Below the pieces are notes generated by a model that was given only the letters and a program-made list of their open reading frames with translations, did not search any database and was not told where the DNA came from. From positions 86,884 to 130,004 of the forward strand of contig JAFSLH010000012.1 in assembly GCA_017448545.1 (NCBI GenBank): 43,121 bases of DNA. The letters are read 5' to 3'. This document shows, in pieces, positions 17,512 through 24,448 of the stretch (position 1 is the stretch's first letter; every line of letters begins with the position of its first letter). The position numbers and the translations under genes were made by a program. This DNA is from Clostridia bacterium. Lineage in GTDB: Bacteria > Bacillota > Clostridia > Christensenellales > CAG-138.

Positions 17512-18168
17512 ATGGATGTATTCGAACAGCTTTCGGCCTATACGCCGTATAACGAACAGGAGGCCGCCGACAAGGCGGTCATGCTGGACGCGCTTTCCCG
17601 CTGCCCCGACGTCGCCCTGCGCTCGAACCTTGTGCTGCATCTGACCGCGTCGGCGTGGATCACGAACCGCGCGCGCGACCGCGTGCTGATGATCTATCAC
17701 AACATCTACGATTCGTGGGCGTGGACGGGCGGCCATGCGGACGGCGAAACCGACCTGCTTGCCGTCGCGCTGCGCGAAGCAAAGGAGGAAACCGGACTAA
17801 GAGAAATCCGCCCGGTCACCGAAGCGCTGTTTTCGATCGAAACGCTGACCGTGAACCCGCACCGGCGGCGCGGCGCCTTCGTCCCGGCGCACCTGCACCT
17901 GAACGCGACCTACCTGCTCGAAGCCGACGACTTAGCGCCGCTTTGCCATAACCCCGCGGAAAACAGCGCCGCGGCATGGTTCGCGCTTTCCGACGCGGTC
18001 GAGGCCTGCTCCGAGCCGTGGATGCGGCCGGTCTACCGGAAGCTGAACGAAAAGCTAAAGGCGTTTGGCGAAAAACAGCAGATTCGTTCCCCGCATCCGA
18101 CCTCGGTGCGCTCGGCCGCCTGCCTCCCCTGTGCAAGGGGAGGTGGATCGGCGCAGCCGAGACGGTAG
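17512..18168 (+). CDS. NUDIX hydrolase with a repeat-derived C-terminus
   Basis: 218 aa. The NUDIX box is WTGGHADGETDLLAVALREA then KEETG (about residues 73-95); the usual first Glu position is Thr, with a Glu one residue earlier, while the REAKEE metal ligands are intact. Family members cleave nucleoside diphosphates linked to another moiety; the substrate here is unknown. HNIYDSWAWTGGH suggests the subgroup with a conserved N-I-Y-x-S-W segment. The last 15 residues and the TAG stop are encoded by the first copy of the family A repeat (18121-18168), so the native C-terminus was replaced or extended. The start is the ATG directly downstream of the -10 element. Confidence 0.85.
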   Translation: MDVFEQLSAYTPYNEQEAADKAVMLDALSRCPDVALRSNLVLHLTASAWITNRARDRVLMIYHNIYDSWAWTGGHADGETDLLAVALREAKEETGLREIRPVTEALFSIETLTVNPHRRRGAFVPAHLHLNATYLLEADDLAPLCHNPAENSAAAWFALSDAVEACSEPWMRPVYRKLNEKLKAFGEKQQIRSPHPTSVRSAACLPCARGGGSAQPRR

Positions 18169-18293
18169 GGTTGTAATATGCCTCCCCTGTGCAAGGGGAG
18201 GTGGATCGGCGCAGCCGAGACGGTAGGGTTGTAATATGCCTCCCCCCTGTGCAAGGGGAGGTGGATCGGCGCAGCCGAGACGGTAGGGTTGTA
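18121..18293 (+). repeat. Three tandem copies of interspersed palindromic repeat family A
   Basis: Copies begin at 18121, 18179 and 18237 (58-bp period). Each has a stem CCTCCCC/GGGGAGG around TGTGCAA, then GATCGGCGCAGCCGAGACGG and TAGGGTTGTA. Copy 3 has two extra C residues in the stem. The copies are otherwise identical, indicating recent tandem expansion. The unit includes GGCGCAGCC, also used as a hairpin in the family B arrays. Confidence 0.92.
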
Positions 18294-18343
18294 GGGAAAC
18301 GCTCTCATTCTTTCCCCGCACGTCCAACCTTCCAACCCCACCC

Positions 18344-18372
18344 TGCCCTCCCCTTACACAGGGGAGGCTGCC
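18344..18372 (-). repeat. Partial inverted copy of family A stem
   Basis: CTCCCCTTACACAGGGGAGG is the inverse of the family A stem, 50 bp from the tandem copies. It could pair with them into a larger fold. Confidence 0.75.
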
Positions 18373-18391
18373 AACCCTCATTCAAGCAAAA

Positions 18392-19381: not shown

Positions 19382-19410
19382 GGGGCTGTTCAGAAACTCT
19401 GAACGGCCCC
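19382..19410. repeat. 13-bp hairpin of the CTGTTCA/TGAAC type
   Basis: GGGGCTGTTCAGA (19382-19394) pairs with TCTGAACGGCCCC (19398-19410) with one G-U pair and a 3-nt loop. It has no T-run. It closely resembles the TIR gene terminator at 24473, so it may be a dispersed terminator module adjoining the family B array. Confidence 0.6.
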
Positions 19411-19411
19411 A

Positions 19412-19700
19412 GTGATAGAAAGCCCTGCGGGCTTTGTGATATGCCTCCTTCGGAGACGTGATATAGCTTCGCTGTGATATGTCCTGCGGGACGCAAGGGC
19501 TTTTGATCCTATCACATGGCCGAACATCGGCCATCTATCACGTTTTTGCGGCAGCATAAAACATATCACGCCGCAAAGCGGCATATCACGACCGCACAGC
19601 GGCCATCTATCACGTTTTTGCGGCAGCATAAAACATATCACGCCGCGAAGCGGCATATCACGACCGCATAAGCGGTCAATTCACGGCGCAGCCTATTCAC
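19412..19700. repeat. Large heptamer-punctuated mini-hairpin array, family B, two opposed halves
   Basis: The left half (19412-19500) has GTGATAG/GTGATAT heptamers between hairpins such as AAAGCCCtgcGGGCTTT, AGCttcGCT and GTCCtgcGGGAC. The right half (from about 19509) carries the same heptamer inverted (ATATCAC, then ATTCAC) between TGGCCGaacaTCGGCCA, GCCGCaaaGCGGC, GCCGCgaaGCGGC, GACCGcataagCGGTC and GGCgcaGCC. A 72-bp segment is duplicated in tandem (19529-19600 and 19601-19672). The modules GACCG...CGGTC and GGCGCAGCC are shared with the array at 4431. No protein-coding gene is seen in it. Confidence 0.88.
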
Positions 19701-21271: not shown

Positions 21272-21655
21272 ATGGAAACGAAACCGAACCGACCGACCGC
21301 CGTTCTGTATGTGCACGGCATGGGCGGCAGCCCGACGGAAAGCGAGCATTACCGCGCGCTGTTCCCGAACTGTGATATCGTGGGGCTCAACTATCAGACG
21401 TTCTGCCCCGAGGAAACCGGCATCGGGCTTTACTGGAAGGACGTCGTCTATATTCGCGAAAAACCGTACCGCTGGCACGTCCCGACGCATATTCTGTACG
21501 GCGCCGCCGACCGGCTGATCCCGTACGACGCGATCACGACGTTTGCCGACGCGCACGGCGCGGACGTCACCGTCCTTGAGGACGGCAAGCACTGGTTCCA
21601 CACCGACGAGCAGATGGCCTTCCTCGACGGCTGGATTCGCTCGCTGCAGCGGTAA
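21272..21655 (+). CDS. Shortened alpha/beta-hydrolase-like protein lacking the nucleophile segment (127 aa)
   Basis: The N-terminus AVLYVHGMGGSPTESEHY and the C-terminal half VPTHILYGAADRL...GKHWFHTDEQMAFLDGWI are clear alpha/beta hydrolase pieces: the oxyanion HG loop, the acidic-residue strand and the catalytic His region. Between CDIVGLNYQTF and YWKDVVYIREKPYRW about 90-100 residues expected in full-length relatives are missing, including the GxSxG nucleophile elbow and lid. The reading frame stays open across the junction. It is either an in-frame deletion derivative without hydrolase activity or a decaying gene. An AGGAAG site precedes the ATG. The judgement on missing length comes from recalled family structure, not an alignment. 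Confidence 0.75.
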   Translation: METKPNRPTAVLYVHGMGGSPTESEHYRALFPNCDIVGLNYQTFCPEETGIGLYWKDVVYIREKPYRWHVPTHILYGAADRLIPYDAITTFADAHGADVTVLEDGKHWFHTDEQMAFLDGWIRSLQR

Positions 21656-21730: not shown

Positions 21731-24448
21731 ATGGATCAGCAAGGCTATTGCGCATTTATCAGTTACCGGCATCAGTCTCCGGATCAGGAGATCGCAAAGA
21801 TGCTGCACACCGCGATCGAAACGTATGGCATTCCGGCGGCGATTAAAAAACAAACCGGCAGAAAGACGATGGGAAAGGTCTTTCGCGATCAGGAGGAGCT
21901 GCCGCTGTCGGCCGACCTCGGCGGGGACATCGAAGCCGCGCTGGATCGGAGCGAGTGGTTCATCGCGATCTGCTCGCCGCGCTATCCGGAAAGCAAATGG
22001 TGCATGCGCGAGCTGGAATACTTCATCGCGCGCAAAGGGCGCGATCACGTGCTGACCCTGCTCGTGGAGGGCGAGCCGGAGGACAGCTTCCCCGAAGTCC
22101 TTCGTCTGCTGCGGAACGAAGACGGCACCGAAACCGAAATCGAACCGCTTGCAGCGGACGTGCGCGGCTCGACGTTTTCGGAAAGCGCAAAGAAGCTGAA
22201 AAGCGAAAAGCTGCGGATCCTTGCGCCGATGCTGGGGCTCGGCTTTGACGATCTCAAGCGCCGTGCGCGGCAAAGAAGAATCCGGCTCGCAGTCACAGCG
22301 GCGGCGGCCGTATTCGTTGCGGCGGCGGCTTTTACGACGTACCTTGTCGTCAACCACATGCGCAACGAGGCGCTGAAGCGTGAAGCAGCAGAACAGCAGC
22401 GCATTGCGGAGGAGCAGGCGGCGCTGGCCGCCGAGCGGCAGAAGCTGGCCGAGGAAGAACAGCGCCGCGCCGAAGAGGAGCGGAGGAACGCGATCTACAA
22501 CGACCTCGGCGAACGGATGGAACGCGCGGCCGCCGCGCTCAACGCGGGCGAAAAGCGCGAAGCGGCCAAGATTCTGATCGACGCATACGCGATCAGCGAG
22601 GAAAACGAGCAGATGCGGCACAATGAACTCCTTGCCCTGCTGCGCCGCGCGATGTATATCGAGCCGTTCACGATCGTTTCGAGCTTCAACAATCAGAACA
22701 TGCAGCTGCTCGACATCAAGGCGTCGCCGGACGGCACGCGCGCGGTCGGCGTCGTCAACAACAATTCGATCGCGATGGTCGACCTGCTCCAAAACGAGAT
22801 TCTTTATACGGTGACCGCGGACAACGCGCTGATGATGTACCCCTGCTTCTCCGACGACGGCGCGCGCTTTCTGGCGTACTGCGACTACGGCCGGTTCGTG
22901 GCGGTCTGGAACACCGAGGACGGTTCCGAAGCGTTCCGCTACACGAGCAAAAAGGATGCGGCGTACGAGATCAGCAACGCCGTCTTCTGGAAGGGCAGCG
23001 ATACGATTCTCGTGCAGGATGCGGACAAGCTCCTGCTTGTCGACGCCGACGGCACGGAAACGCTGTTCTATACCTACGGCGAGCAGATGCCGGACTACAA
23101 CCCTGACGACAATATCATGACGCGCATCAGCGGTATGCCGCTTGACGAACTGTACACGAACGTCGCAGACGGATATGCGATGGATGTTCTCGTGACCGCC
23201 GATTGTGAACGCGTCGTGATCACCGGCAAGGCCGGCGAAACGGGTGTAATCGTGCTGGACGGACAGGGCAAGCGGGTATTTATGCCGACCGTGCCCGGCG
23301 ACCCAACGTGCATGATGCCGGGCACGTTTGGCGAAAAATGGTCGATTTCGCCCGACGGCAAGACGCTTTGCTGCCTGTCCCTGCTCTCCTTTATCGCCGG
23401 GTGGGATATGGACACCGGTGAAATGATCTTTATCGAAGCCGTCGAGAGCAATTCCGGGGATATGCCGTCGACGCCGATCTTTACGCCCGATTCCGGGATT
23501 CTTGCCTATACGTTCGGTTCCACGCTGTACGTCTGCGACGCCGGTACTGCGACGCCGTTCCTGGTCGCGAACCTTGATGAAACGAACTATATTCCGTCGA
23601 TCCGGTTCACCTCGGACGGCAAATACCTGCTGATGACGAACGAAGCCATGTTCATCATCAACGCCGAAACGTGGGCGGCGGAGCTGATCGTTTCGGCGGA
23701 GGGCACGAACTACAACGGCATGGTTCCGATGGAAAACATGGTGCTCTGCTCGCGCTACGACGGCGTAATCTACTTCTACAGCATGCCGGCTTTGGCGTCG
23801 GTTACGACTGCGGACAGCTTTTCGGGGCCGCTCATGGACCCATATGATCCGCAGCGCGCGGTCGCGTGCGTGCCGCTGATCCGTCAGCACGAGCTTTCGG
23901 CGACGTTCCTGCAAACGAATTTCTATAAGGATTACCCGTCGAAGCTCTGCTTCTCGCGCGACGGGAGCGTCGCCGCCATTGCGTATCCGGACGGCACGAT
24001 CGAGCTTTTCGACACGCAGGGCGACGGCACGGTCCGCGATACGATCGGGCAGCTCTATACCTATATCAACGCGCTCGCGATCTCGGAGGACCGGCTCATC
24101 GCGATCGACATGAATACGCGCATGATGGTCTATAACCTGAACACGCACTCTGTCGAGACGATTCAGAAGAACGGCACGCAGTATACATCCTTTGCGTTCA
24201 ACGGGGACGGCTCGCTGATGATGGCGCTGTGCGAAGGGCTGACGCGGATCGACGTGTTCGATCTCGATGACGGCTGCCGGCTTCTGTTCTCGCTGCAATC
24301 GTCGCTGACCTTCTCGGATATGGCGTTCTCGGCGGACGGCGCGTACGCGGTCGGCGTCACCGCCTCCGGCACGTATGTGATCGGCGACCTGTTCGCCGAC
24401 GAAGCCGCCCTGATCGCCCGTGCGGAGTCGTTCGCGTCGGATCGGTAA
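21731..24448 (+). CDS. TIR domain - transmembrane - coiled coil - beta-propeller protein (905 aa)
   Basis: Residues 1-120 form a TIR domain: YCAFISYRHQSPDQEIAK (strand A, box 1), GKVFRDQEELPLS, and FIAICSPRYPESKWCMRELE, where Glu94 in the W-C-x-x-E-L helix matches the catalytic Glu of NAD-cleaving TIRs. A conserved linker (about 140-180) ends in the basic KRRARQRRIR, directly before a single membrane helix (about 185-207). A charged coiled coil (about 210-255) and a helical segment (255-310) follow. Residues about 315-895 hold at least eight propeller strands with S-P-D-G-like turns (ASPDGTRAVG, ISPDGKTLCC, FTSDGKYLLM, FSRDGSVAAI, FSADGAYAVG). By the positive-inside rule the TIR is cytosolic and the propeller outside. 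It may signal by NAD+ cleavage or TIR assembly; no partner effector is obvious. AGGAG site upstream; last gene before a terminator. Confidence 0.88.
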   Translation: MDQQGYCAFISYRHQSPDQEIAKMLHTAIETYGIPAAIKKQTGRKTMGKVFRDQEELPLSADLGGDIEAALDRSEWFIAICSPRYPESKWCMRELEYFIARKGRDHVLTLLVEGEPEDSFPEVLRLLRNEDGTETEIEPLAADVRGSTFSESAKKLKSEKLRILAPMLGLGFDDLKRRARQRRIRLAVTAAAAVFVAAAAFTTYLVVNHMRNEALKREAAEQQRIAEEQAALAAERQKLAEEEQRRAEEERRNAIYNDLGERMERAAAALNAGEKREAAKILIDAYAISEENEQMRHNELLALLRRAMYIEPFTIVSSFNNQNMQLLDIKASPDGTRAVGVVNNNSIAMVDLLQNEILYTVTADNALMMYPCFSDDGARFLAYCDYGRFVAVWNTEDGSEAFRYTSKKDAAYEISNAVFWKGSDTILVQDADKLLLVDADGTETLFYTYGEQMPDYNPDDNIMTRISGMPLDELYTNVADGYAMDVLVTADCERVVITGKAGETGVIVLDGQGKRVFMPTVPGDPTCMMPGTFGEKWSISPDGKTLCCLSLLSFIAGWDMDTGEMIFIEAVESNSGDMPSTPIFTPDSGILAYTFGSTLYVCDAGTATPFLVANLDETNYIPSIRFTSDGKYLLMTNEAMFIINAETWAAELIVSAEGTNYNGMVPMENMVLCSRYDGVIYFYSMPALASVTTADSFSGPLMDPYDPQRAVACVPLIRQHELSATFLQTNFYKDYPSKLCFSRDGSVAAIAYPDGTIELFDTQGDGTVRDTIGQLYTYINALAISEDRLIAIDMNTRMMVYNLNTHSVETIQKNGTQYTSFAFNGDGSLMMALCEGLTRIDVFDLDDGCRLLFSLQSSLTFSDMAFSADGAYAVGVTASGTYVIGDLFADEAALIARAESFASDR

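Follow-up and report, generated by a model that had tools for sequence, protein, structure and literature searches.

What could a TIR domain report on, and to which partner, when it is built into one protein with a membrane helix and a propeller? The question is raised by a gene at 21731-24448 on the plus strand of a 43,121-nucleotide (nt) stretch of DNA, hereafter the window, from a Clostridia bacterium (Christensenellales; CAG-138; GenBank assembly GCA_017448545.1, contig JAFSLH010000012.1, positions 86,884 to 130,004). Its 905-amino-acid (aa) product, taken by an earlier, sequence-only reading for a receptor-like TIR protein, is a real, conserved, receptor-like protein, one of a family found in Bacillota of the rumen and gut. 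We consider it to be, with a probability of about 0.48, a membrane TIR receptor that makes a nucleotide signal for SLOG- or RyR-containing membrane effectors, i.e. a system of Thoeris-like logic with a built-in sensor.

The TIR domain and its glutamate

The gene is an intact open reading frame, and its ATG start codon has the ribosome-binding-like sequence AGGAGAGG about 8 nt upstream. Along the chain, the TIR domain comes first, followed by one helix, a stalk and WD40-like repeats, which bears out the receptor-like layout in reversed chain order that had been proposed. The TIR domain (aa 9-116; 21755-22078, plus strand) was identified by the Pfam models TIR_2 (E-value (E) 2e-12, 48.1 bits vs a cut-off of 28) and TIR PF01582 (E 6e-6, 26.6 bits vs 21.3), and by matches to TIR domains in the PDB. 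The glutamate of its W-C-x-x-E-L motif, Glu94 (codon 22010-22012, plus strand), singled out earlier as catalytic, held its place in a comparison with characterized TIRs: the surrounding SKWCMREL aligns with SKWCLMEL of the plant L6 TIR (3ozi) and with SDWCWDEL of the bacterial Cat1 (9mud).

One scan of named genomes, with selection by two peptide patterns that exclude Glu94, gave 92 relatives, 80 of which were kept as loci. All 80 contain the motif SxW[CVAIT]xxE, and the Glu94 column is invariant across an aligned set of 51 members, i.e. the window protein and 50 of the 80 loci. TIR_2 was matched by every member of this set at E <=0.01, and ThsB_TIR by 38 of the 51 at the same threshold. The window protein itself scores 12.7 bits with ThsB_TIR, below the cut-off of 21.2, and is thus not of ThsB type by this profile; in PADLOC it matched ThsB at E 0.022, and its E with the candidate model PDC-S66 was 8e-6. 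The window TIR carries the active-site glutamate expected of a catalytic TIR NADase, and cleavage or cyclization of NAD+ is predicted.

Membrane helix and orientation

The protein has one hydropathy peak, at aa 189-207 (22295-22351, plus strand; Kyte-Doolittle 1.96), the best values elsewhere being 1.13 and 0.64. Directly before it lies the basic patch KRRARQRRIR (aa 176-185; 22256-22285, plus strand), on the cytosolic side by the positive-inside rule. Both the single helix and the preceding basic segment had been read correctly from the sequence, as had the charge pattern: all 77 family proteins with a helix have more lysine plus arginine before it, towards the TIR, than after it. Exactly one helix was found at aa 165-215 in 71 of the 75 relatives with 400 aa or more (five shorter proteins out of the 80 were excluded from this count). 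The four exceptions are L060, with a weaker peak of 1.45, and L064, L103 and L108, each with a second weak peak. Judged by hydropathy and charge only, this is a single-pass protein with its N-terminus inside (one helix, a positive-inside flank), which would place the TIR domain inside and the propeller outside of the membrane.

An improbable alternative is that the hydrophobic segment anchors the protein without crossing the membrane, the propeller then serving as an inside scaffold for TIR assembly. Modules of the WD40 and TPR kind often serve as scaffolds in the cytosol, and the WD40-, TPR- and Sel1-like C-termini of the family (the last two named by eye) resemble such common scaffolds. Cysteine content, moreover, did not separate inside from outside and is uninformative here, with medians of 1.69% in 135 cytosolic proteins, 1.73% in only eight exported ones and 1.34% in the exterior part of 72 family proteins. 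These points speak against an exterior sensor, whereas the one helix of about 19-20 residues and the uniform positive-inside bias speak for it. So does the kinase PknD, which in the part of its description consulted has the same layout with an extracellular propeller (PMC6213207).

The repeat region and its evolution

The helix is followed by a charged, coiled-coil-like stalk, recognized by eye (aa 215-262; 22373-22516, plus strand), and by the WD40-like propeller region (aa 318-880; 22682-24370, plus strand). WD40 and propeller models of Pfam match aa 318-430 and 735-872 with E down to 8e-13; most of them stay below their own family-specific cut-offs, while ANAPC4_WD40 lies above (27.3 vs 22.9 bits). 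The commonest propeller model was matched by 49 of the 51 aligned members at E <=0.01. With a profile of the blade units, 70 family proteins with lengths of 800 aa or more gave a mean of 3.5 units above 6 bits, and 210 shuffled controls gave none, a result that reflects shared repeats rather than an independent test of the fold, as the 70 proteins include close orthologs. About 12 blade-like repeats were counted, where at least eight propeller-like blades had been proposed earlier. Since 12 blade-like units can be counted by eye from aa 331, with nine of the 11 spacings at 39-51 residues, the region probably forms two propellers.

The propeller changes much faster than the TIR domain. Over 50 members, identity to the window protein ranges between 46 and 80% in the TIR and between 12 and 72% in the propeller; the most distant members retain approximately 50-65% in the former and 12-20% in the latter. 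In one pair of relatives the two parts have recombined: L047 and L051 are 87% identical in the TIR and only 37% in the propeller, and the L047 propeller is 70% identical to that of the window, with a TIR of only 66%. The break point between the exchanged halves lies in the stalk. This pair is the strongest of 136 compared and the single clear case of recombination. The same TIR-helix core is also found with other C-termini, TPR-like in L012 and Sel1-like in L018, both named by eye and with a weak TPR match.

Some family loci show further peculiarities. A TIR-like protein with a hydrophobic segment and altered TIR motifs occurs in L012 and L017, which are the same region, and in L013. It lies beside a TIR-helix-TPR gene in L012 and L017, and downstream of it in turn from a surface-like protein of low complexity, which is rich in Thr in L013 and in Asn/Gly in L017. 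In L055 (5456-8283) the frame ends early, at 201 aa, with the match continuing to query residue 898, i.e. an interrupted copy; in L096 (5989-7434) a family member's frame ends early at 482 aa.

Full-length relatives occur in nine of the 23 genomes of the genus, the window's own counted, many of these genomes being incomplete; the window genome comprises 1.5 Mb and is 60% complete, and the copy in G004 is split over two contigs. A tally at E 1e-10, with TIR-only matches included, stands at 14 of 61 relatives. No relative was matched on viral contigs by a single-protein query, whose reach is limited to close relatives. Phages likewise gave no match, and plasmids gave eight TIR-only matches at 15-19% coverage. 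Bacterial TIRs come in a wide range of architectures (PMC8635717, seen in part); no account of a TIR-helix-propeller family from Bacillota turned up in the literature searched, although that review of varied architectures may list it.

Genes linked to the TIR gene in relatives

Partner genes were sought in the 80 loci by tblastn with partner sets, most queries being taken from the same loci, and with a codon-based gene caller. A SLOG-SLATT-like gene was found in nine loci, an HD-RyR gene in ten, and one or both in 15. A gene for a DHH/DHHA1 phosphoesterase lies near the TIR gene in 11 loci, and a membrane-Rossmann-RyR-like gene in three. These three are L111, L071, which covers the stretch of contig seen in L179, and L112, where the match is weaker (E 5e-9 over 192 aa). 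Altogether, some partner type was found near the TIR gene in 29 loci. The sequence-only reading had seen no flanking defense genes, which is correct for the ten window genes and incomplete for the family; the survey of homologs for architecture and neighbors that it proposed, carried out here, gave the conserved helix position as well as these partners.

The arrangement of the linked genes varies. The TIR gene is followed by SLOG in L060 and L065, and by HD-RyR in L035, L047, L051, L063 and L064. SLOG and HD-RyR together lie downstream on the opposite strand in L034, L036 and L037, and one or both of them upstream on the opposite strand in L048, L049 and L058. SLOG is upstream in L094, and HD-RyR farther downstream in L092. 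In seven loci the partner is co-directional and starts -1 to 75 nt past the TIR stop, these being likely operons, three of them with a zero-gap or 1-nt-overlapping start. L170, in a two-contig genome, has HD-RyR, SLOG-SLATT and the family TIR gene in tandem. The chance of finding nine or ten such genes in 80 loci at one copy per 1.5-2 Mb is at most 2.4e-7 if loci are independent, a value that overstates the linkage, as the loci are related.

Several HD-RyR candidates were discarded on the way. A 1212-aa antisense frame in the window had clustered with HD-RyR as a result of longest-frame picking in GC-rich loci, and antisense frames in L056, L077, L084 and L089 were likewise dropped. In L058 the longest frame also ran into an antisense stretch, yet this locus has real HD-RyR and SLOG genes.

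The linkage bears directly on a simpler scenario, in which the protein is a stand-alone membrane NADase: a ligand clusters the TIR domains, NAD+ is depleted and growth stops, the SLOG and RyR genes being mere neighbors in accessory islands. In its favor, the TIR has its catalytic-type glutamate, no partner stands beside the window gene, and none was detected in 51 of the 80 loci, many of which have short flanks. Chance neighborhood fits poorly with a linkage that recurs in several gene orders, with the gapless or overlapping starts of three loci and with the tandem trio of L170, and we regard this scenario as unlikely.

The approximately 500-aa DHH gene adjoins the TIR gene in L093, L095, L096, L098, L099, L101, L102, L103, L105, L108 and L113. 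It is co-directional in ten of these, overlapping in four and within about 10 nt in six, and lies on the other strand in L101. Its product is possibly a messenger-degrading enzyme. In L176, L178, L179, L183 and L185 the TIR gene has as its neighbor a membrane protein that combines a Rossmann-like part with a RyR-like end, the latter recognized by eye, and on plasmid pNP243 of Butyrivibrio fibrisolvens D1 (L186, 6977-11556) a TIR gene of the family is followed by a relative of this protein.

These same DHH genes, together with the membrane-Rossmann-RyR-like neighbors, could instead point to housekeeping control of nucleotides and ions. The protein would then be a non-defensive signaling receptor for e.g. 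wall state, nutrients or surface contact, whose TIR chemistry or assembly regulates ion flow or nucleotide turnover. The absence of any defense family among the ten window genes, beyond weak matches of a MarR regulator, agrees with such a role; the patchy presence within the genus (in genomes that are often incomplete), the fast-changing ectodomain and the recombination case do not. We find it quite unlikely.

Firmness of the partners and the window's own genome

A number of observations weigh against the coupling of the receptor to SLOG and RyR effectors, and they begin with the partner domains themselves. Only one RyR match exceeds its cut-off, that of the HD-RyR protein in the window's own genome (E 2e-14, 54 bits vs 27.4). 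Below the cut-off are L179/L071 (E 5e-5), L063 (E 2e-4), L047 (0.023), L111 (0.033) and L170 (0.048), and the profile search found no RyR match in L034, L176, L178, L183, L185 or L186 (in L186 with Pfam at E 0.1). A SLATT model was matched in six of six proteins at about aa 240-345, with best E of 5e-5 to 0.017, all below the cut-off; in L036 the SLATT models are outscored by an unrelated one. The YAcAr SLOG model was matched in two of four proteins (E 0.003 and 0.006) and DUF4231 in three of four (E 1e-4 to 0.02), again below cut-off; L094 has neither. The HD proteins have conserved H, HD and D columns, with a sub-threshold Pfam match in one of three (E 0.058). When the SLOG-SLATT and HD-RyR sets were used for PDB profile searches, neither SLOG nor HD was found, and PADLOC gave nothing for HD-RyR or DHH and weak matches only for SLOG-SLATT. 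For the Rossmann part, TrkA_N was matched at E 0.16 in L183, and other NAD(P)-binding models at E 0.009-0.12 in L185, L111 and L186. DHH and DHHA1 were both above cut-off in the one protein tested.

The window gives a similar picture, as no partner adjoins the TIR gene among the ten genes tested. The neighbors are flavodoxin, a short hydrolase-like gene (below cut-off), FMN reductase, polysaccharide deacetylase, a PHP-associated gene and phosphoglucose isomerase, and PADLOC found no ThsA among the ten proteins, both neighbors included. The idea of an insertion site was discarded: flavodoxin and FMN reductase are on different contigs in all 16 other genus genomes with both, and no conserved empty site was seen. 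Elsewhere in the window, a 127-aa alpha/beta-hydrolase-like gene (21272-21655) has by eye kept the start and end of the fold and lost the middle, and is possibly a remnant, and intergenic repeated blocks at 18033-18381 and 19390-19656 are visible as repeated peptides in open frames.

On another contig of the same genome (C5; L150, 2678-11640) we found a five-gene cassette of a degenerate TIR (E 0.009, below cut-off), a TIR with leucine-rich repeats (LRR), a 1213-aa LRR protein, HD-RyR and SLOG-SLATT, its domains being tested in this locus only. Whole or partial look-alikes were found in L151-L156, L158, L159, L162 and L173. TIR-LRR cassettes with SLOG and HD-RyR recur in genomes of the genus and family, some of them without a propeller TIR. 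Since SLOG and HD-RyR stand beside that cassette also in genus genomes without a propeller TIR, the pair in the window's own genome may belong to the TIR-LRR cassette; it could serve both receptors or the LRR cassette alone.

Among 297 genomes of the order, the TIR protein (E 1e-25, all C-termini) was found in 14, SLOG-SLATT in 16 and HD-RyR in 29. TIR co-occurs with SLOG in six of its 14 genomes (Fisher 2e-5) and with HD in six (Fisher 9e-4), and SLOG with HD in 11 of 16 SLOG genomes (Fisher 3e-9), statistics that are inflated by kinship: outside the window's own family only two genomes have both TIR and SLOG, out of ten with each. G209 is the only one of the six genomes with TIR and SLOG in which the two are neighbors; G000, G026, G114, G243 and G291 carry them on separate contigs, and the TIR match of G026 is of the TPR type. 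Because only one genome in six has the two genes adjacent, stand-alone NAD+ depletion gains ground and coupling to the effectors loses some.

Proposed mechanism and meaning

As we picture it, the divergent propeller outside of the membrane would be the sensor, and phage particles are one option among several for its ligand. The stalk and the single helix would carry the signal inward and gather the TIR domains, which would process NAD+ to an ADP-ribose-type messenger, perhaps also depleting NAD+. This messenger would be read by SLOG- or RyR-containing membrane effectors, of the SLOG-SLATT-like, HD-RyR or membrane-Rossmann-RyR-like kind, which would then perturb nucleotide pools or the membrane, and the most likely benefit would be protection of the population against phage or rivals. 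A possible answering partner in this organism is the HD-RyR and SLOG-SLATT pair of contig C5. That the family amounts to a class of bacterial transmembrane Toll-like receptors, with a rapidly diversifying, exchangeable exterior propeller as the sensor of a particle or ligand at the surface, an inside TIR making a soluble ADP-ribose-type messenger, and interchangeable SLOG-SLATT, HD-RyR and membrane-Rossmann-RyR effectors shared with the cytosolic TIR-LRR cassette, is a broader proposition that we advance tentatively and with some doubt.

To our knowledge, the known bacterial TIR defense systems sense infection inside the cell. If our reading is true, bacteria would have surface-triggered, Toll-like signaling through a TIR that carries an exterior sensor of its own, and would have solved the same design problem independently. 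RyR domains take their name from a channel for which a response to cyclic ADP-ribose has long been argued, and the family offers a test of whether bacterial RyR domains read TIR products. Through the plasmid pair of Butyrivibrio fibrisolvens D1 and a pair in Alkalibacter mobilis, both from records of strains and not from metagenome-assembled genomes, the idea can be tested; the D1 pair is a possible laboratory model.

Comparison with known systems

One of the closest known cases is WP_167562754.1 of pNP243, which has a TIR above cut-off, a helix by eye and weak matches to propeller models. The protein encoded after it, of 604 aa, shares 31% identity over 599 aa with the Rossmann-RyR-like neighbor in L185. 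WP_167562754.1 differs in being annotated only as a toll/interleukin-1 receptor domain protein, with 37-41% identity to four family members over 240-366 aa, and in having a neighbor without a RyR match in Pfam at E 0.1.

Like PknD of Mycobacterium tuberculosis, for which an extracellular propeller is established, the protein would combine an inside enzyme, one helix and an outside propeller (PMC6213207, in part), a precedent that supports this layout. PknD has a kinase in place of the TIR, and one six-bladed propeller.

For SLATT, the role of a nucleotide-controlled membrane effector has been predicted, and TIRs of firmicute phages adjoin SLATT (PMC9503650, PMC7159879). The predicted TIR-SLATT systems of Aravind and co-workers, described from firmicute phages as well, would resemble the present one in their coupling of a TIR to membrane effectors of the SLATT type. 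In the parts consulted of these two papers no TIR-helix-propeller receptor is described, and here the SLOG-like and SLATT-like parts share one protein, with HD-RyR added.

With Thoeris the family shares a TIR with a catalytic-type glutamate, a SLOG-like or membrane partner gene in part of its members and a probable ADP-ribose-type messenger (PMC11204291). The SLOG domain of ThsA binds 3' cyclic ADP-ribose (3'cADPR) made by a TIR, according to the part of that paper seen, a precedent that by analogy would support the reading of a messenger by SLOG effectors. Here, unlike in Thoeris, the TIR forms one chain with a membrane helix and a propeller, and the partners are SLOG-SLATT-like, HD-RyR or Rossmann-RyR-like proteins instead of ThsA (SIR2-SLOG or TM-macro).

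The TIR of animal Toll-like receptors is C-terminal, and here it is N-terminal. The two would have in common an outside repeat domain, one helix and an inside TIR (PMC8635717, in part), with a propeller here in place of LRR, and kinship is claimed for the TIR domain alone. By the tests made, the propeller TIR is a member of neither Thoeris nor the Toll-like receptors; if the steps proposed above hold, it would work like both.

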